Assembly (NCBI GenBank): GCA_903959855.1
Contig: CAJBYR010000106.1
Coordinates: 1 to 54,050 of the forward strand
Direction of reading: 5' to 3'
Length of the DNA stretch: 54,050 nucleotides
Source of the DNA: an uncultured beta proteobacterium
GTDB taxonomy: Bacteria > Pseudomonadota > Gammaproteobacteria > Burkholderiales > Rhodocyclaceae
Shown here in pieces: positions 1-9,197 of the stretch (the stretch's first letter is position 1; every line of letters begins with the position of its first letter). The notes below the pieces were generated by a model, which worked only from the letters and a program-made list of their open reading frames with translations, was not told where the DNA came from and searched no databases. Both the position numbers and the translations under genes were made by a program.

Positions 1-2089
1 CGGCGAATACATTGGCTGTCATGGCGATTATCGACGTCCGGGTGTGCCCGGGAATCTCCCGAATCAACTGCGTGGCGGCCAGCCCGTCGAGATTGTCCAT
101 CTGCAGGTCCATCAGGATCACGCTGTAGTCCGTCGCCCGTGCCCGTGCGACGGCCTGCAGTCCGTCCTCGGCCGTGTCTACCACCAGACCCGCGGCTTCG
201 AGGAGCATCGTGGCGATTTCCCGGTTGATCGGTTCGTCGTCGACGATCAGAATCCGCTTCCCCGCATGATCTCGCAGGATGGCCTTTTCGGCGTCCACAT
301 TTGCGGCCGGTGGCTGCAGGGAAGCCGTGCTGCGCCTCTTTAGTGTCGCGGTAAACCAGAAGGTGCTGCCGACCCCGGGAGTGCTTTCGACTCCCACCTG
401 GCCCCCCATGAGTTCCGCCAGGCGGCGGGTAATCGCCAGGCCGAGGCCGGTACCACCATACCGGCGCGTCATCGAATTGTCTGCCTGCTCAAAGACGCTG
501 AAGAGCCGAGGCAGTATCGGAGGTTCAATGCCTATGCCGGTGTCGTGCACCTCAAATCGTATCAGGGCCGAGTCCGTGGCTTCACGCTGGGTGACGATGC
601 GCAATGTAACCGCACCCGTTTCAGTGAATTTGACGGCGTTGGTCGCGTAGTTGAGCAATGCCTGTTGCAGGCGGGTGGGGTCGCCAAAAAGATCGGGGAG
701 TGCCTGCCCCGCTTCAGCAAAAAGACAGATTCCCTTTTTCTTTGCGGGTACTGCCAGGATTGAACATACATTGCCCAGCAGGTCGGTGATGCTCACCGGC
801 ACGTCCTCGAGGACTATTTTTCCCGCCTCGATCTTGGAGATGTCGAGGACGTCGTTGATGATCCCCAGCAAGTGGTCGGCTGAGACCCGTATCTGGTTCA
901 GACGTCCCGCCTGAAGGGGGCTGACGTCGCCTCGCTGCAGGAGGTGTGTCATGCCGAGTATTCCATTCATCGGCGTGCGGATTTCGTGGCTCATGTTGGC
1001 CAGGAAAGCGCTCTTGGCCCTGTTCGCCGATTCGGCGGCGTCCCTCGCATCGATCAGTTCTGCAGTGCGCGCGGTCACGATCTCTTCCAGGTGATGCCTG
1101 TGCCTCTCGAGCTCTGCCTCAGCGGCCTTGCGCGCCGTAATGTCGATCCGGTTGCCGACGATGAAGCCGCTGGGTGTGCGATATTCGATGATCAGCAGCC
1201 AGCGGCCATCGTCGAGCAACTGCTCCAGCTGGCTTCCATCAGCTTCGTGATGCTTTTGCACGCGTTCGCGCACCCACTCGTCGATGCGACCTTCGGCTTC
1301 CCTGTATTGCCCGCGCTCGGCGCCTTTGCGGACAATCTCCTCGAAGCTGGCGCCCGGAACGATCAAATCCCGGCTGGTACTGTAGAAGCTCAGATAGGCC
1401 TCATTGCAGATTACAAGGCGGTCATCAGCATCGAAGATCGTAAAGCCTTCCGGGAGTCCGTTAACCGCTTCCTGCAGGAGCTTGCTGGACTGCCGGGCCG
1501 CAAACTCAGCTTCCTTGCGCGCAACTTCGACGCTCTGGTCAATCAGAACCAGGAGCGTTCTGCCATCCTGCTCGAACTCCTCGTGCAGATGAATCACATG
1601 CACATCGCAGGGAATCGTCTGGTCGCCGCCTACCTTGAGCTTCAGCAGTTCTATTGTGTGCGGTGCCGGATCGCTCCGGTCGCGCAATACCTTATGCACC
1701 TGAGCGCGGCTGTCCATGTCGAACAGCAGGAGGGCCGAGCGCCTCTGCAGCGCGGCATTGCGGCTCAGTCCGAGAAACTCGCAGGCCTGATGGTTGGCGT
1801 CGACTACGAATCCGTTGCCATCAACAACCAGTCCGGGCAGGGGCAGAAAATCGAACAGGGAACGGTATTTTTCCAGAGTCAGCGCAACTTCGCTCTGGGC
1901 GTTGGCAAGTTCCTGGTTCTGGATCTCGAGCTCGGTTTGATAAATACGCAACTCTTCGACCAGATGGCGGATGTCCACGTTTTCCGCAGTGTGCGGGTGA
2001 TCGTCTACGAAAGTAGCCTGAGTAAGTTCCAGCGCCTTTCTTGCACGCTCCCGAAGCTCCGTGAGGTTGTTTGCGTACCGATTGCTCAT
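1..2089 (-). CDS. Hybrid sensor histidine kinase, 3' part cut by window edge
   Basis: About 696 codons are visible before the left edge. Order: N-terminal coiled segment, two PAS-like regions (roughly residues 50-150 and 170-280), HisKA with [11 protein letters not shown] (His368), HATPase with DTGIGI and GGTGLGL boxes, then a receiver starting near residue 611 (ILIVDDE) with phospho-acceptor Asp661 in LMDLQM. The receiver's C-terminal end, including the expected Lys-Pro, lies outside the window, so further domains are possible. The ATG at 2089-2087 overlaps the stop of the upstream CheB-CheR gene as ATGA, so the two are translationally coupled. No transmembrane segment is seen, which suggests a cytoplasmic sensor. 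The kinase may receive input from the CheB-CheR-PAS protein, because related proteins elsewhere carry both parts in one chain (inference). Confidence 0.93.
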   Translation of the reverse strand, partial: MSNRYANNLTELRERARKALELTQATFVDDHPHTAENVDIRHLVEELRIYQTELEIQNQELANAQSEVALTLEKYRSLFDFLPLPGLVVDGNGFVVDANHQACEFLGLSRNAALQRRSALLLFDMDSRAQVHKVLRDRSDPAPHTIELLKLKVGGDQTIPCDVHVIHLHEEFEQDGRTLLVLIDQSVEVARKEAEFAARQSSKLLQEAVNGLPEGFTIFDADDRLVICNEAYLSFYSTSRDLIVPGASFEEIVRKGAERGQYREAEGRIDEWVRERVQKHHEADGSQLEQLLDDGRWLLIIEYRTPSGFIVGNRIDITARKAAEAELERHRHHLEEIVTARTAELIDARDAAESANRAKSAFLANMSHEIRTPMNGILGMTHLLQRGDVSPLQAGRLNQIRVSADHLLGIINDVLDISKIEAGKIVLEDVPVSITDLLGNVCSILAVPAKKKGICLFAEAGQALPDLFGDPTRLQQALLNYATNAVKFTETGAVTLRIVTQREATDSALIRFEVHDTGIGIEPPILPRLFSVFEQADNSMTRRYGGTGLGLAITRRLAELMGGQVGVESTPGVGSTFWFTATLKRRSTASLQPPAANVDAEKAILRDHAGKRILIVDDEPINREIATMLLEAAGLVVDTAEDGLQAVARARATDYSVILMDLQMDNLDGLAATQLIREIPGHTRTSIIAMTANVFA

Positions 2090-5022
2090 GATGCCTTGCG
2101 CTGATACCAGCTTGAAATGTTGACGTGACTGACGACGGCCCCGAATTCGGTGCCGGTCACTGGCGCCACGTTCATGACGAACCAGCGCTGCTCGGTTGGC
2201 GAGTGGCAGGGGTATTGCAGCGAGAACATGGGTAGCGTTCCTTCGAGCACCTTGCGCAGGCCTCTGGCAGCTTCTGCCGCGATGAGGCCGTCCTCATGGC
2301 TGCCGGCGCGACAGACATCGAGATAGTTGATGCCGATGCCCGAGTGCAACAGGTCCTTGTCACCGTTGGCACGGGCAAAGCGGCGCCAGGCGGCATTGAC
2401 AAGGGTGATGGTTCCGGCGGGATCGACAACTGCGACATGTTCAGGCAAGGCATCGATGATGGCCTGCAGGCGCCTGGCGTCGTAATGTGCGGTGATGTCT
2501 ACAAAGGTGGCCACGGCGCCGCGGACCGTGGTCGAGGGTATCAGGTAGGGCAGGATGCGCACCAGGAAGGTCTGCTTTCCATCGACGCTTTCGATTTCCC
2601 GCTCGATCATGCGCTCCGTCCTCAGCGTTGTTTCGAGGTCCTTCATCAGGTCCGGATAGGCGAGCAGGTTGGAAATCTCGTCCAGCGGCCGCCCCACGTC
2701 CGATTCCCGCAGCTTGAATATCTGCGTGGCATCGGGGCTGAAGCGGGTGATCACCAACTGGGCATCGACGAACACGGTCGCCACGCCGGCGGCCTTGGCC
2801 ATGCCGTCGAGATCGGCATTGGCCGAGTTGAGAGCCAGCATCTTCTCCTGGAATTCGGAGTTGACCGTACTCATCTCTTCGTTGACCGACTGCAGTTCCT
2901 CGTTCGAGCTTTGCAACTCCTCGTTGGAAGCCATCAGTTCTTCGTTGGTGGCCTGCAGTTCCTCATTGGACGTTTCCAGTTCCTCGATCGTGGCCTGCAG
3001 GCTTTCACGCGTTGCGCCCAGTTCCCGCTCAAGAATGCTGACCCGGGCCATGGTTTCGGCATCGACGTTGACCGACTCCATCTTGGGAGCCATGCGCGTC
3101 GCCTCTACCTCGAAGCAGAGCAGGGTCAGGCGCTCTTCGCTTTCGGAAGCGATCGGATGCACGGAGAGCCGCAGGCTGCGCAACTCGCCATTTTGCAGGG
3201 TTACCTCTACCCGGTCGGAGACGATCGAACAGTGGTCCCGGGCGGACTTGTAGAGCAGAGCGGCGGCAACGGGCGTCAGCGCTTCGGGCAACAGGCGGTT
3301 GATCTCCAGGCTCGCCGCGCCTTCGCGGGCGCGCAGGTAGGCATTGACGTCGCCGTAGAGGTGCACCGCCTCATGGCTGGCGTTGACGATGATCGCGGGC
3401 GGCGTGTAGCGGGCCAGCAGCGCGGCGGTGCCGGCATCGGCGACGCTGTTGTCGTTCGCTCGCCGCCGGCCTCTTTCGCCATGCGGTCCTTTGCTCCCGA
3501 GAGTCGGCAGATAGGCCGAGCGGCCCTTGCGATCCATCAGCGGCAGCGACATCACACCCTTGCGCCGGAACAGCTTGTGCTTGGCGTTGATGGTCTGCAG
3601 GCCTTCCGTGACGGCCGCCAGAGACTCGCTGGGGCCAAGCAGCAGCGCGCCACCCTGATTGATCGCGTACTGCAGGGTGCGCAAGGCGCGCTCCTGGGCG
3701 GCAGACTTGAAATAGATCAGCGTGTTGCGGCAGGCCACCAGGTCCATCTTGGTGAAAGGAGGATCTGCGAGCAGGTTGTGGCGGGCGAACACGATGCACT
3801 GGCGCAGGTCGTTCTTGATGACGAAGTTGTCGCCCTTCTTGACGAAGAAGCGCTCCAGCCGTTCGGGGGAAAGCTCCGCCGCCGCCGATTCCGGATACTG
3901 CCCGACCCCCGCTGTTTCGACGCATTGCTGGTCGACGTCGGTGGCGAAGATCTTCAGGTTGGGCCAGCGCTGCTCACGCTCGAAAGCCTCGATGAACAAC
4001 ATTCCAATGGTATAGGCCTCTTCACCGGTTGCGGTGCCCGCGACCCACACCCGGATCGTGTCGTTGCCCTGCTTTTCCGCCACCATCGGTGCGATCACCT
4101 TCTCCGCGAGCAGGGCGAAGGTCTCCGGATCGCGGAAGAAGCTGGTCACCGAGATCAACATTTCCCGGCGCAGTGTGATCACTTCGCCGCGGTCGTTCTC
4201 CAGGCGGTCGAGGTATTGGTAGAGCTCCGGCGTGTGGCGCACCTGCATGCGTCGCTCAATGCGGCGCATCACGGTGGCCGGCTTGTAATCCGAGAAGTCG
4301 ATGCCGCCGATCTGGTGCAGCAGTTGCAGGATGACGGACAGCACCTCGTCATTGGTCATCGTCGCATAGGGAATGACCTTGACCGTCGGCTCGACTTCCT
4401 TGTAGGGCACATTGTTGATGTGCGCGATCAGGCGTAGCGGCAGCTCCTCGGCCGGCAGGATCGCATCGACGATGCCCGTCGCGATCACGCTGCGCGGCAT
4501 GCCGTCGAACTTGGCGGACTCCGGTTCCTGGGACAGCAGGAAACCGCCTGCCGCATTGATGGCGACCGCGCCGCGCGTGCCGTCGGTGCCCGTGCCGGAC
4601 AGGATCACGCCGACCGCGTGGCGGCCGTAGGTTTCCGCCAGCGACGCGAGAAATATGTCGATCGGCAATGTCAGGCCACGCGGATTCTTCGGTGTCAGGC
4701 GCAGGCGTCCTGTCGTGACGTGCATCAATGCGGCGGGCGGGATCAGGTAGACGTGGTCGGCCTCGATCGGCATGTCATCCTCGACCACGGTCACGGGCAT
4801 CTCCGTGTGGCGGGCCAGCAGGTTGCTCATCATGCTCTTGTGGTCCGGAGACAAGTGCTGAACCACCACATACGCCGCTCCACTATCTACCGGGCAGGCC
4901 TTGAAGAATTTTTCCAGCGCATCCAGACCGCCGGCAGACGCCCCGACGCAAACCACGTAGCCGTCGAAGCCCGTATCGCCGGCCGCTCGATGCCGGGCTT
5001 TTTCTGAGGTGAGCGCTTTCAT
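2086..5022 (-). CDS. CheB methylesterase-CheR methyltransferase-PAS fusion protein
   Basis: 978 aa. The N-terminus is a CheB methylesterase without a receiver: GASAGG with Ser29, His56 in QHLSPDH and Asp147 in GTGTDG form the expected triad. A CheR methyltransferase follows (about 245-490), with an arginine-rich N-subdomain (MRRIERRM) and a SAM loop reading AGTATGEEAY where CheR usually has AGCSTGEEPY. Residues about 660-727 are a long coiled coil of repeated NEELQ-type heptads, followed by two PAS regions (about 740-830 and 860-960). Such proteins join receptor-type glutamate methylation to PAS sensing. No MCP, CheA or CheW is in the window, so the methylation target is unknown. The gene is coupled by ATGA overlaps to the CarH-like regulator upstream and to the kinase downstream. 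Confidence 0.93.
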   Translation of the reverse strand: MKALTSEKARHRAAGDTGFDGYVVCVGASAGGLDALEKFFKACPVDSGAAYVVVQHLSPDHKSMMSNLLARHTEMPVTVVEDDMPIEADHVYLIPPAALMHVTTGRLRLTPKNPRGLTLPIDIFLASLAETYGRHAVGVILSGTGTDGTRGAVAINAAGGFLLSQEPESAKFDGMPRSVIATGIVDAILPAEELPLRLIAHINNVPYKEVEPTVKVIPYATMTNDEVLSVILQLLHQIGGIDFSDYKPATVMRRIERRMQVRHTPELYQYLDRLENDRGEVITLRREMLISVTSFFRDPETFALLAEKVIAPMVAEKQGNDTIRVWVAGTATGEEAYTIGMLFIEAFEREQRWPNLKIFATDVDQQCVETAGVGQYPESAAAELSPERLERFFVKKGDNFVIKNDLRQCIVFARHNLLADPPFTKMDLVACRNTLIYFKSAAQERALRTLQYAINQGGALLLGPSESLAAVTEGLQTINAKHKLFRRKGVMSLPLMDRKGRSAYLPTLGSKGPHGERGRRRANDNSVADAGTAALLARYTPPAIIVNASHEAVHLYGDVNAYLRAREGAASLEINRLLPEALTPVAAALLYKSARDHCSIVSDRVEVTLQNGELRSLRLSVHPIASESEERLTLLCFEVEATRMAPKMESVNVDAETMARVSILERELGATRESLQATIEELETSNEELQATNEELMASNEELQSSNEELQSVNEEMSTVNSEFQEKMLALNSANADLDGMAKAAGVATVFVDAQLVITRFSPDATQIFKLRESDVGRPLDEISNLLAYPDLMKDLETTLRTERMIEREIESVDGKQTFLVRILPYLIPSTTVRGAVATFVDITAHYDARRLQAIIDALPEHVAVVDPAGTITLVNAAWRRFARANGDKDLLHSGIGINYLDVCRAGSHEDGLIAAEAARGLRKVLEGTLPMFSLQYPCHSPTEQRWFVMNVAPVTGTEFGAVVSHVNISSWYQRKAS

Positions 5023-5966
5023 CCGGTGGCCTTCGTAGTGCGTTTGGAGCTTCGGTCAAGAAACATGCGTGACTGCAGTGCATCGCGAAGCTGGTTCATC
5101 GATGAGAGGTCCATTGTACCGGCGGGCAGATTGCTGATCTTCGCCATGCCTGCACCGCCAAGCCAGAGGGCGGTGTCTGCAGGCAGGGATGCACGCAATT
5201 GCCGGATCAAGGGTCCAAGCAATCTTGGGGGGTAGTGGCAACTTGCAGACAGTCCGACCGCCGCTACGCGGTAGGCTTCCGCCGCCTTGACGATTTCTCC
5301 CAGCGGCAAACTTTCAGGCAGTTGCAGGCTTGAGATGCCGGCTTCGCTGACTGCGGCATGGACCATTGCCAATCCAAGGGTATGCAGCTCTCCGGCAGGG
5401 GTTGTGAGGAGAATTGCGGGCTTTCTCATGTCACCCATCAAGCGACTGGCCTCTCGCGAAAGAAAGCTCTCGAGGACTGAGGAATAGAGGTGCTCGGCAT
5501 GAACCGGGAGTGCGCCGCGAGCCCACTCTTCGCCTACCATGTAAGTCAGAGGAGCGGCGATTTCCTCGACGAAATCGAGCATTGATCGATTCTTCCGCTC
5601 TTTCTCGAGCAAGGTGGTGAGTTTCGGAACCTGATGGGCCTGAAGCGCGGCAAGCATTGCGCGAATCCCATCGGCTACCGGACCTGAAGATGTCAACTCG
5701 AAAACTGTCGTCTCACCCGACGGCCCCGCCCGAACCAATTCGGGAATGACCTTGCCAACCCTCTCGCCTGCAGCGATTCTGCGGGAAATCTCATGCAGGG
5801 TCCGGACATCGCTGTCGCAATATTCGCGCTGGCCCGATTCCGCACGCAACGGGCGTGGAAAGCCGAAGCGTTGCTCCCATTTCCGCAAGGTGTGTATGCC
5901 TAGGCCTGTTTGCCTGGCGACTACGCCTATTGAGACCAAAATATACCGCAGTCCATGTGTGTCCAA
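5019..5966 (-). CDS. CarH/LitR-like MerR regulator with cobalamin-binding domain
   Basis: 315 aa. Residues 8-75 form a MerR winged helix (IGVVARQTGLGIHTLRKWEQRFG). A helical bundle follows with W148-x9-E158-H159, the W-x9-EH motif that caps the upper axial face of B12 in CarH photoreceptors. The C-terminal Rossmann-like domain has E193-x-H195-xx-G, then 41 residues to SAS, then 27 residues to GG (270-271). That matches the base-off cobalamin signature, with His195 as lower ligand. By family knowledge it is a DNA-binding repressor that uses adenosyl- or methylcobalamin and is often light-responsive. It is the first gene of a three-gene coupled operon. The ATG at 5966 has no clear ribosome site, so a leaderless message or a nearby start such as TTG at codon 10 is possible. 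Light sensing is inference. Confidence 0.9.
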   Translation of the reverse strand: MDTHGLRYILVSIGVVARQTGLGIHTLRKWEQRFGFPRPLRAESGQREYCDSDVRTLHEISRRIAAGERVGKVIPELVRAGPSGETTVFELTSSGPVADGIRAMLAALQAHQVPKLTTLLEKERKNRSMLDFVEEIAAPLTYMVGEEWARGALPVHAEHLYSSVLESFLSREASRLMGDMRKPAILLTTPAGELHTLGLAMVHAAVSEAGISSLQLPESLPLGEIVKAAEAYRVAAVGLSASCHYPPRLLGPLIRQLRASLPADTALWLGGAGMAKISNLPAGTMDLSSMNQLRDALQSRMFLDRSSKRTTKATG

Positions 5967-5978
5967 AGCGCCAGTTTA

Positions 5979-5997
5979 GTCTAGCCCAAACCTAGAC
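5979..5997. promoter_or_regulatory. Inverted repeat GTCTAG-N7-CTAGAC, candidate operator
   Basis: Perfect 6+6 bp dyad with a 7 bp spacer, 13-31 bp upstream of the CarH-like start codon. A possible -10 (TAAACT on the minus strand, 5977-5972) lies just downstream. The position suits autoregulation by a MerR dimer, but the binding protein is not known. Confidence 0.5.
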
Positions 5998-6163: not shown

Positions 6164-6970
6164 TTATCCGACCTGCGTCCGCAGCACGTCGCGGGTCGTC
6201 GGATCGGCGGCAAACATGTGTTCGACGCGCAGCGACGACAGGGTGATGTCCTGCGGTGCGCCAAACGTCGTAAACATGCTGAAGAACGCCAGTTCGCCGT
6301 GGGCCGTGGCGTAGCGCGGGGTCAGCATCGGCGTTGCTGGTTGCAGGCCTGCGCGATGAAGGAATCGTGCCCCGAGGCGCGCTCGCAGCAGCGCGGCAAA
6401 CGCGTCCACCCGTGGCGCCAGCGCAGGCTGCACCGACACCTCGTTCATGAGCTGTGCCAGGAACACGGGGCCGACCTCGTGCAGGTTGACCATGGACTTG
6501 GTGAATCCCTCGGGATGGGCAAGCAGGTCGAGGATGTTGATGGTCGCATCGGGCGCCAGATCGGCAACCCAGGGCATCAATGTGACAGCGAGCCATCTGG
6601 CGCCGCGATTCATCTGCAACACGTTCCATTCGGCGTCGATGACCAGCGCCGGGGTTGGGTCATGCGCGTGCAGCAGTTGCGTCAATGCCTCGTTGGCCTG
6701 CGCCAGTGCCGGGTCGCCCAGGCGGGCGGTGCCGTAGGCCGGAGCGAAGCCGGCTTGAAGCAGCGCCAGATTGCGCAGTGCCAGCGGCGTGTCCAGTTCG
6801 CCCATCCATGCCATCAGCAAGTCGCGACTTGGCCTGGCGCGGCCGCTTTCGACGAAGCTGACGTGGCGCTGCGACACCCCGATCCGCATTGACAGTTCCA
6901 GCTGGCTCAAACGGCGGGCCTTGCGTGCCCGCTGCAGGGTAATCGGCAGGCTTTGGGTCGGTTCATTCAT
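6164..6970 (-). CDS. XRE-family regulator with MmyB-like ligand domain
   Basis: 268 aa from ATG 6970, chosen because the helix-turn-helix begins about ten residues later. Residues 10-65 are an XRE helix-turn-helix (ARKARRLSQLELSMRIGVSQ, then RHVSFVESGRARPSRDLL). Residues 95-260 resemble the PAS-like MmyB ligand domain (PTPALVIDAEWNVLQMN, and a C-terminal FTTFGAPQDITLSSLRVEHMF). Actinobacterial MmyB-type proteins bind small hydrophobic ligands; the ligand here is unknown. The gene is divergent from the DUF2834-like membrane gene at 7077, which is its most likely target by position. About 150 bp separate its stop from the FNR box of the next operon. Confidence 0.87.
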   Translation of the reverse strand: MNEPTQSLPITLQRARKARRLSQLELSMRIGVSQRHVSFVESGRARPSRDLLMAWMGELDTPLALRNLALLQAGFAPAYGTARLGDPALAQANEALTQLLHAHDPTPALVIDAEWNVLQMNRGARWLAVTLMPWVADLAPDATINILDLLAHPEGFTKSMVNLHEVGPVFLAQLMNEVSVQPALAPRVDAFAALLRARLGARFLHRAGLQPATPMLTPRYATAHGELAFFSMFTTFGAPQDITLSSLRVEHMFAADPTTRDVLRTQVG

Positions 6971-7424: not shown

Positions 7425-8276
7425 TCAGGCCCCCGCTGCGGCCCGGCTTCGCAATGATTTGATCCAGGACTTCTGGCAGATGCTGCGGCGCTGTTGTTCG
7501 AGGTGCTCGCGGATGTTAGCGCGCACTTCGTCGAGTTGCGACTGGCGTTCTGGATTGATGGTCTCGCAGTGGATCAGGTGGTAACCCAGCTCGGATTCGA
7601 CGGGTTCCGACAAGCTCGCCTCGGCCAGGGCAAACGCGACCGCTTCGAGCTCGGGGTAAAGCTGGCCGCGCGGCACGGTACCGAGCAGGCCGCCATTCAT
7701 GGCCGTGGGGCACTCGGAATGTTTCAGCGCCTGCTCGGCGAAACGTTCGGGTGATTTGGCTAGCCGGGCATAGATGGCCTCGATCCTGGCCCGGGCAGCC
7801 GGGCGCTCGTTGCCGGCGAGCTGTTCGTTGATGGTGACCAGGATGTGGCGCAGCACCCGCGTCTCGGCGCGGCGAAAGCGATCCATGTGCATGAACCAGA
7901 AAATCTCGACTTCGGTATCGCTCACCACCGCCGAGGTCGTCGCAATCTTTTCCAGGACCGCCTCCACCACCATGTCGCGCTCCACCGCCTGCCGCAACAA
8001 TGGCGCGTCGAGGCCGATGCGATCGAGGTCGGCGTTGAACTCGTCGTCGCTGGCGTAACGCTCGCGAATTTCCATCAGGCTGGTTTCGATCGAAGATTCC
8101 GGCAGCATCACGCTGGCGGCTTCCGGCGTCGTCAGGATCAGGGTCTCGATTTCGTGCTGCTTTGCCGCGACGGTCTTTACCCGCCGCAGCTCGTCGGCCG
8201 CCAACACGTCGAGCGGCTTGCTGTAAAGCCTCGCCGCCAGCTTGAGTGCCAGATAGATGCCGCCCGGCTCATCCAT
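7425..8276 (-). CDS. nifM: Nitrogen fixation protein NifM, PpiC-type prolyl isomerase
   Basis: 283 aa, normal for NifM. The N-terminal helical part is followed by a parvulin/PpiC domain (about 135-235: RVLRHILVTINEQ, LGTVPRGQLYPELEAVAFAL, ELGYHLIHCE). In Azotobacter and Klebsiella NifM is required for folding and activity of NifH, the nitrogenase iron protein. No signal peptide is seen, so the protein is cytoplasmic, unlike SurA. It is the last gene of the nifV-cysE-orf-nifW-nifZ-nifM operon, and its start overlaps the nifZ stop by 8 bp. Identification rests on sequence style and on the nif context. Confidence 0.93.
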   Translation of the reverse strand: MDEPGGIYLALKLAARLYSKPLDVLAADELRRVKTVAAKQHEIETLILTTPEAASVMLPESSIETSLMEIRERYASDDEFNADLDRIGLDAPLLRQAVERDMVVEAVLEKIATTSAVVSDTEVEIFWFMHMDRFRRAETRVLRHILVTINEQLAGNERPAARARIEAIYARLAKSPERFAEQALKHSECPTAMNGGLLGTVPRGQLYPELEAVAFALAEASLSEPVESELGYHLIHCETINPERQSQLDEVRANIREHLEQQRRSICQKSWIKSLRSRAAAGA

Positions 8277-8727
8277 CGCTGCCGGCCCATTCGGTCAATG
8301 CCGCTTCTGGCACCTGCAGCGGGTTTCCCGGCAAGCAGTCGAAATGCACGTGATAGAGCACTCCCTGCGCCGCGGAGCGATCAAGATTGAGTACCTCGCC
8401 GGGGCTGCCCAGGGGTACGCGCACCTCGCCGCGGATCGCCAGCGCGCGTGCGGCACGGACCTTCTGCCGCACCTCGAAGCGGTTTTCGATCCAGGGTTCG
8501 TCAGTGTCGATAAGCTCTTCTTCGCGGCAGCCGATGACGCGGCCTTCGTCGAGGAAATGCACGGAGTAGATGATCTGGTCCTGGAGGAAGGTGCCGACGT
8601 CGCGCACGTGTCCGATGCGGCCGCGGCGCACCAGCAGGTCACCGGTTTCGACGCCGGGGAAGGTGCCGTCGTTGCGCACGTTGCGCGTCACGCGCACGGC
8701 ATCGCCCAGGGTCCAGCGCGGCCTCAC
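8269..8727 (-). CDS. nifZ: Nitrogen fixation protein NifZ
   Basis: 152 aa from a GTG start at 8727, preceded by AGGAG with a 6 nt gap. The only upstream ATG in frame would add 23 residues that do not look conserved. The NifZ domain is near the N-terminus: WTLGDAVRVTRNVRNDGTFPG, then GDLLVRRGRIGHVRDVGTFL and a VHFLDEGRVIGCREEELI stretch. NifZ acts in maturation of the second P-cluster pair of the MoFe protein. The C-terminal third contains a second beta-rich stretch. It overlaps nifM by 8 bp and is separated from nifW by 155 bp holding a strong hairpin. Confidence 0.92.
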   Translation of the reverse strand: MRPRWTLGDAVRVTRNVRNDGTFPGVETGDLLVRRGRIGHVRDVGTFLQDQIIYSVHFLDEGRVIGCREEELIDTDEPWIENRFEVRQKVRAARALAIRGEVRVPLGSPGEVLNLDRSAAQGVLYHVHFDCLPGNPLQVPEAALTEWAGSDG

Positions 8728-8805
8728 TTCACGCTCCTGGCAGCAAGCGGCCACCCGCCGAGGATGACATACGCGAAAAGCGAATTGAAGTCCCACCCCT
8801 CCCGT

Positions 8806-8823
8806 CCTCCCCTCACGGGGAGG
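8806..8823. repeat. GC hairpin between nifW and nifZ
   Basis: CCTCCCC (8806-8812), loop TCAC, GGGGAGG (8817-8823): a perfect 7 bp stem without a T-run. It sits inside the only sizeable gap of the nif operon, so it may be a processing or stabilising element or a REP-like repeat rather than a terminator. Confidence 0.6.
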
Positions 8824-8882
8824 CTTCTGATTAGATCGCTTCGCTCAACAAACACGTGCCGCTCCGAATGAGTTGTGCCACG

Positions 8883-9197
8883 TTAATCAGTCAGCGACGA
8901 CAGCGACTGGAAGGAAGAACCTTCGGCCTTCTGGAACACGGCGAAGACCTTTTCCTGCTGCGCGCTGGAGCCGACAAAATCCTCGTAGGCGCGCAGCAGC
9001 CACCCGCGCCAGGCAGTGTAGTCGGGGGCCTTGCCGGCTTCCTGCTTGGCCAGGTAGTCGTGATAGCGCTGCAGGATGTGCAGACGGTTGACCTGGACAA
9101 TCCGGGCGTCGAAGGGGATGTCGAAGTAGTCGAGGAAGTCCTCGGCGGAGACGAGGTCGGCAAGTTCTTCTGCAAAGTGGTCGGTATCTCGGTCCAT
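8883..9197 (-). CDS. nifW: Nitrogenase-stabilizing/protective protein NifW
   Basis: 104 aa, the usual NifW length. The diagnostic core is LVSAEDFLDYFDIPFDARIV followed by VNRLHILQRYHDYL. NifW associates with the MoFe protein and is linked to oxygen protection and maturation. The start has a good ribosome site (AGGAGAACATC before ATG). It lies 12 bp after the helical-repeat ORF and upstream of nifZ. Confidence 0.96.
   Translation of the reverse strand: MDRDTDHFAEELADLVSAEDFLDYFDIPFDARIVQVNRLHILQRYHDYLAKQEAGKAPDYTAWRGWLLRAYEDFVGSSAQQEKVFAVFQKAEGSSFQSLSSLTD

Follow-up and report, generated by a model that had tools for sequence, protein, structure and literature searches.

A CarH-like MerR regulator gene adjoins a CheB-CheR-PAS sensor gene in three genera

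A gene for a MerR-type regulator with a CarH-like cobalamin-binding domain lies directly upstream of a gene for a CheB-CheR-PAS fusion protein (CheBR), and this association recurs in three genera. Our best reading, to which we give an even chance, is that the regulator would repress its own CheBR sensor operon in an adenosylcobalamin (AdoCbl)-dependent manner and would probably be released by light. The stretch of DNA analysed here (the window) is an entire contig of 54,050 bases (G000:C106) within a 4.26-Mb assembly of 347 contigs, and the third gene of the operon is therefore truncated inside its receiver.

The three-gene operon

The operon comprises the following features, all on the minus strand:

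5019..5966, minus: gene 1, MerR-type regulator with a CarH-like cobalamin-binding domain; 315 amino acids, TTG start (Pfam, CarH match in the PDB, residues)
2086..5022, minus: gene 2, CheB - CheR - coiled linker - PAS - PAS, without a receiver; 978 amino acids (Pfam, site motifs)
2..2089, minus: gene 3, soluble PAS-PAS hybrid histidine kinase, 3' part beyond the contig end; 696 amino acids, open at the window end (Pfam, partner comparison)
5019..5022, minus: ATGA overlap of genes 1 and 2 (ORF coordinates)
2086..2089, minus: ATGA overlap of genes 2 and 3 (ORF coordinates)

The ATGA overlaps joining all three genes, claimed in a preliminary description made from the sequence alone, are confirmed by the ORF coordinates. 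That description had also assigned methylesterase and methyltransferase modules without a receiver to gene 2, and a cytoplasmic hybrid kinase to gene 3. Both assignments hold. In the gene 2 product Pfam detects CheB (188.3 bits), both CheR_N and the SAM-binding domain, and PAS, while Response_reg is absent; canonical CheB has an N-terminal receiver. The gene 3 product reads PAS-HisKA-HATPase-Response_reg, and no transmembrane-like segment was found in the products of the genes (highest 19-residue hydropathy 1.51 in the kinase and 1.39 in CheBR). MCP, CheA and CheW are absent among genes 1-3 and the four neighbours scanned. Additionally, translation of gene 1 may begin at TTG 5939 rather than TTG 5966, as the linked homologs described below begin about nine residues later and the homolog profile starts at 5939.

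Upstream of the operon, at 6164-6970 on the minus strand, lies a gene for an XRE-type regulator with an MmyB-type ligand-binding domain. This neighbour is adjoined at 7425-9197, minus strand, by genes for NifZ, NifW and a PPIC-type isomerase, which we take to be NifM-like; these genes suggest that the operon lies near part of a nitrogen-fixation cluster.

Recurrence and phylogeny of the linkage

Relatives of the CarH-like regulator are common, occurring at E <= 1e-8 in 135 of the 297 family genomes drawn. Close CheBR relatives were found in at least 9 of the same 297 genomes (E <= 1e-200) and in at least 4 of 399 genomes of the order; no more than two CheBR candidates were scored in each genome of these large draws, so that the counts are lower bounds. 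A MerR gene stands directly upstream of CheBR at three of the nine close CheBR loci, each in a different genus: the window, L040 (genome G204) and L060 (G108). The ATGA overlap of the two genes is found at L060 as well, and thus at two of the three linked loci. No MerR regulator was present in the fetched stretch at the other six, one of which (L062) has only about 0.6 kb of upstream sequence on its contig. Within the three genera, where nearly all candidates were scored, CheBR occurs in 1 of 31, 1 of 6 and 1 of 5 genomes, and the MerR-CheBR unit is therefore patchy.

From the regulator side, CheBR is adjacent in 2 of the best 30 family loci, the window's own included; the L060 regulator ranked below these and entered through the CheBR search. 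A profile built from the linked regulators matched 120 of 399 genomes of the order, and among the best 30 loci, which were fetched, CheBR lies within the 1.5-kb flanks at one, again the window's own. The three CheBR loci of the order besides the window have no MerR gene within 1.5 kb. With the same profile in 239 genomes of the class, none of six additional loci held a further CheBR-linked MerR gene, and a scan of genome contigs with the gene 1 regulator returned only one match, distant and from Gemmatimonadota.

To place the linked regulators, we aligned 70 proteins, consisting of the fetched best-ranking loci and Thermus thermophilus CarH (TtCarH; L150), with L012, L065, L066, L074, L076 and L146 omitted as repeats of rows present. 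After 15 of the 70 rows were dropped as near-copies, judged by eye, the resulting 55-row tree unites the three linked regulators in one clade (support 100/86; 100% of 200 bootstrap trees), which also appears in a smaller 33-row tree (95/85; 94%). Next to this clade, though weakly supported (95/62), branches L140, which comes from a different family of the class and shares 40-42% identity with the gene 1 product. Branches in the 55-row tree are long, as the tree program warns, and the end branch of the gene 1 product measures 2.17.

The linked clade is separate from the CarH-like paralog that is usual in the family and that the same genome also carries (G000:C103; L041 8719-13656). This paralog belongs to the same protein family as the gene 1 product, with 33% identity, but reads KDEEH where PxGExH is expected. 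Its neighbours are FolE2, FAD-oxidoreductase, DUF1365 and CFA-synthase genes, the last three of which also flank the MerR gene of Azoarcus plasmid pAZKH (L125). Two CarH-like regulators thus occur in this genome, each in its own gene neighbourhood. In Pseudomonas putida, FolE and UfaM are described as light-inducible under class II LitR (PMC9758184).

The preliminary description had proposed a search for co-occurrence of all three families, and had named a regulator that usually stands without the other two genes as evidence against its reading. The MerR-CheBR pair does co-occur in three genera, but the hybrid kinase is inconstant (see below). The broad CarH-like family is indeed mostly found without these genes, but those regulators sit in other branches of the tree. 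Could the neighbourhood be accidental, the regulator gene having come to rest by chance in front of an ordinary CheBR sensor pair? The low fraction of linked loci and the patchy distribution would fit, but the single regulator clade, the dyad shared by the three loci (below) and the ATGA overlap at two of them make an accident very unlikely.

The regulator and its operator-like dyad

In the gene 1 product, MerR_1 (36.3 bits, cut-off 21.6) and B12-binding_2 (26.8 bits, cut-off 23) pass their Pfam thresholds, while the Rossmann half, B12-binding, reaches 29.1 bits and stays below its cut-off of 32.1. The corresponding B12-binding_2 and B12-binding scores are 31.7 and 42.3 in the L040 regulator and 20.2 and 26.1 in that of L060. 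TtCarH is the closest solved structure (PDB search, E 1.4e-19), and the Thermus CarHs listed are 28.4-30.7% identical to the gene 1 product. The latter falls below the NCBIfam CarH equivalog cut-off of 400 (95.5 bits), which TtCarH passes with 510.2. A single-sequence structure prediction had a mean pLDDT of 39.5, too low for use.

A full cobalamin signature had been claimed for this protein, and the residues listed for it are present: W148, E158, H159, H195, G198, S240, S242, G270 and G271. The protein shares its domain order with CarH, whose Trp131, Glu141, His142 and His177 correspond to W148, E158, H159 and H195. Across the alignment the columns of G145, E158, H159, H195, G198, P221, G270 and G271 are invariant (70/70), and W148 is kept in 69 of 70 rows. 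The signature is not complete, however, as CarH His132 is replaced by Ala149 and GxxxP reads PxxxP, the sole loss of this Gly among the 70 proteins. Judged by these residues, gene 1 encodes a MerR protein of the CarH/LitR type that has diverged but retains the AdoCbl-contact residues of CarH. TtCarH adjoins photolyase and phytoene-synthase genes, which gene 1 does not.

Four elements, GxxW, EH, GxxH and GxxxP, are given as the signature of light-responsive cobalamin domains (PMC11796333). The gene 1 product has three of the four and the L040 and L060 regulators have all four; GxxH is found in 24 of 70 rows, all three linked regulators included. His at the His132 position is found in two of the 70 rows, L140 and TtCarH. 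By its description, CtMerR resembles the gene 1 product in combining MerR with a light-type cobalamin domain and a residue other than His at this position; it is a light-responsive tetramer with Arg there (PMC11796333), so A149 does not exclude a light response. The TtCarH H132A variant is reported to remain mostly tetrameric after light, whereas an earlier report had disassembly (PMC10442372). A light response of the gene 1 product is thus plausible. At L040 4479-5372 (G204), an in-frame TGA interrupts the linked regulator close to codon 257, ahead of the final portion of the B12 domain, through either a sequencing fault or decay.

Alternatively, the regulator may sense AdoCbl supply or redox (oxidation) state, with light irrelevant in the natural habitat. 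The missing counterpart of the light-state ligand His132 and the altered GxxxP speak for such a sensor, as do the ten B12-binding-domain matches in the genome, which include both MerR proteins, and the C103 paralog, which may already serve as light regulator. On the other hand, the L040 and L060 regulators carry the complete published light signature, and Trp148 is kept, whose CarH counterpart stacks on the adenosyl group (PMC10442372). We regard a sensor of this kind as possible but rather doubtful.

A further alternative is a regulator without cobalamin that is released by a partner photoreceptor or by one of the operon's own PAS proteins. The precedent is class II LitR of Pseudomonas, a CarH-like repressor whose gene stands beside that of a PAS-fold protein, the short LOV partner, and in which only the four-helix half of the B12-binding region remains (PMC9758184). 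The long end branch and the below-threshold B12-binding score of the gene 1 product are in keeping with such a protein, but traces of both B12-binding halves are present and the lower-ligand position, H195, is kept. Additionally, Pfam finds no BLUF match in the three proteins, and the LOV cysteine motif, searched as a regular expression, is absent from the nine CheBRs and nine partners. Release of a cobalamin-free regulator by a partner is accordingly unlikely, and AdoCbl-dependent repression remains the reading we prefer.

CarH-like regulators were also seen beside chemosensory genes at two other places. At L147 (G912; 1019-2644 and 2999-3886), the gene for one with the full light signature and His132 immediately follows an MCP gene. 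A Comamonas endophytica plasmid (L127 2366-8501) has an MCP gene on either side of a CarH-like MerR gene and a BLUF gene close by, which again hints at an association of light regulators with chemosensory genes.

Two features precede gene 1:

5979..5997, no strand: 19-bp dyad GTCTAG-N7-CTAGAC, candidate MerR operator; sole exact pattern match in the genome, dyad shared by both other linked loci
5973-5978, minus: TAAACT, -10-like hexamer after the dyad on the minus strand; picked by eye

The preliminary description had named 5979-5997 as a site for DNA-binding tests, and a pattern match confirms a dyad there. Dyads lie upstream of the linked regulators at all three loci (GTCTAGGTTTGGGCTAGAC, GTCCAACTTAGGGTTGGAC and GTCCAGATAATATCTGGAC), followed within one base by the -10-like hexamers TAAACT, TATACT and TACAAT (by eye). 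The common pattern, GTCYAR-N7-YTRGAC, is found at 3/3 linked loci versus 0/66 other MerR upstreams (150 bp), and occurs once per linked locus when the entire fetched stretch is scanned. It is absent from the six unlinked CheBR loci, the three order CheBR loci, the Azospirillum locus, L147 and L041, all scanned whole. Markov resampling puts the chance that a 150-bp stretch contains some 19-bp dyad with its six end bases paired at 2.8 to 4.7% per locus; some such dyad occurs in 4 of the 66 other MerR upstreams, in all cases with arms that differ from the GTCYAR type.

The dyad was rejected as a tool for finding a regulon. GTCYAR-N7-YTRGAC has exactly one match in the whole of its own genome, and its occurrence at least once in each of 148 of 297 family genomes is of the same order as the reversed control counts (unsummed). 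Because the family search stays at control level, the dyad is argued solely from its place and shared arms. The promoter scan called no promoter at the dyad and gave a weak 9-of-12 site at 5965-5938 on the minus strand, and no good -35 element precedes the dyad by eye. The class II LitR operator is given as TGTACA-N12-TGTACA (PMC9758184), and the consensus T(G/A)TACA-N12-TGTA(C/T)A was found in 0/69 regulator upstreams here. From its position and arms, the dyad at 5979-5997 is a probable MerR operator, and the MerR protein probably controls transcription of its own operon.

CheBR, its partner and the proposed mechanism

The CheB motifs GASAGG, QHLS and GTG(T/S)DG, which presumably supply the catalytic Ser, His and Asp of the gene 2 product, and the CheR motif TGEE are kept in all nine aligned CheBRs. 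Unexpectedly, the most conserved stretch of the protein lies in its linker:

2881..2985, minus: linker coil of CheBR, residues 680-714; 94% invariant in nine proteins (motif counts)

This degree of invariance compares with 30% for whole CheBR, 43% for CheB and 39% for CheR. With the methylation motif consensus taken from PMC8396549, the coil of every one of the nine CheBRs contains two exact MCP-type motifs, a number reached by 0.14 to 0.72% of 5000 shuffled coils. Two motifs are also found in L129 (Azospirillum), L137 and L139, and one in L138; the six CheBRs of other layouts (L131-L136) have one motif (3/6) or none (3/6). Known CheB-CheR fusions with PAS domains, such as that on an Azospirillum oryzae plasmid, have the same CheBR-coil-PAS layout with an ATGA-coupled PAS partner; the plasmid locus, unlike the window, has no MerR-B12 gene upstream.

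Conservation of the coil and its motifs suggests self-adaptation of CheBR, and self-methylation is a sharp hypothesis. Passages of PMC8396549 that mention CheB-CheR fusions state no substrate for them. The main rival is that the coil is conserved for docking the N-terminal coil of the partner, with CheB and CheR acting on MCPs elsewhere in the cell. Heptad coils join dimers, and the partners at all nine loci have a conserved N-terminal coil (ELRIYQTELEIQNQEL in the window and ELRLQQAELEVQNEQL in the most different, L040), with exact methylation motifs in three of the nine. Docking would leave unexplained the paired motifs in 9/9 coils and their scarcity in the CheBRs of other layouts, and we consider it a serious contender at somewhat less than an even chance.

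The partner itself varies. Hybrid or plain kinases follow CheBR at six loci (the window, L057, L058, L059, L061 and L062) and PAS-GGDEF-EAL proteins at three (L040, L060 and L063). The hybrid kinase, counted as part of the unit in the preliminary description, is therefore not a fixed member, since both other linked loci encode PAS-GGDEF-EAL in its place and, by these domains, have a predicted c-di-GMP-type output rather than a kinase. What is constant is CheBR together with a partner that has the conserved N-terminal coil.

In the AdoCbl-dependent reading, the MerR protein with AdoCbl bound would occupy the 19-bp dyad of its own promoter in the dark. On illumination the Co-C bond would break, the oligomer would fall apart or release the dyad, and the operon would be transcribed, with genes 2 and 3 produced in step through ATGA coupling. 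The gene 2 product would be a soluble PAS sensor bearing its own CheB and CheR, and its presumed PAS partner would give the output, through the hybrid kinase here and a GGDEF-EAL protein at the two other linked loci. CheB and CheR would most likely set the gain of the PAS pair by methylation and demethylation of Glu in CheBR's own linker coil.

The original proposal of a light- or cobalamin-gated signalling unit thus gains from the linkage, the clade and the shared dyad, but loses from the inconstant kinase and the incomplete light signature. The evidence points to control of operon transcription by MerR, not to signal transfer from MerR to the kinase. We put forward only tentatively, as a doubtful but possible view, a light/B12-gated cassette in which a CarH-type autorepressor would license a self-methylating cytoplasmic PAS sensor with interchangeable output, phosphorelay or c-di-GMP. 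The combination had been called unfamiliar as a described system, and no title or abstract opening among the matches listed from open-licence PMC papers contains it.

CarH-type regulators are mainly associated with carotenoid and photodamage genes. In the three genera described here, one is apparently devoted to a signalling operon and has an operator-like site of its own. From the coil of CheBR comes a clear and cheap prediction of what stand-alone CheB-CheR fusions modify. If true, the cassette would represent chemotaxis-style adaptation outside any receptor array.
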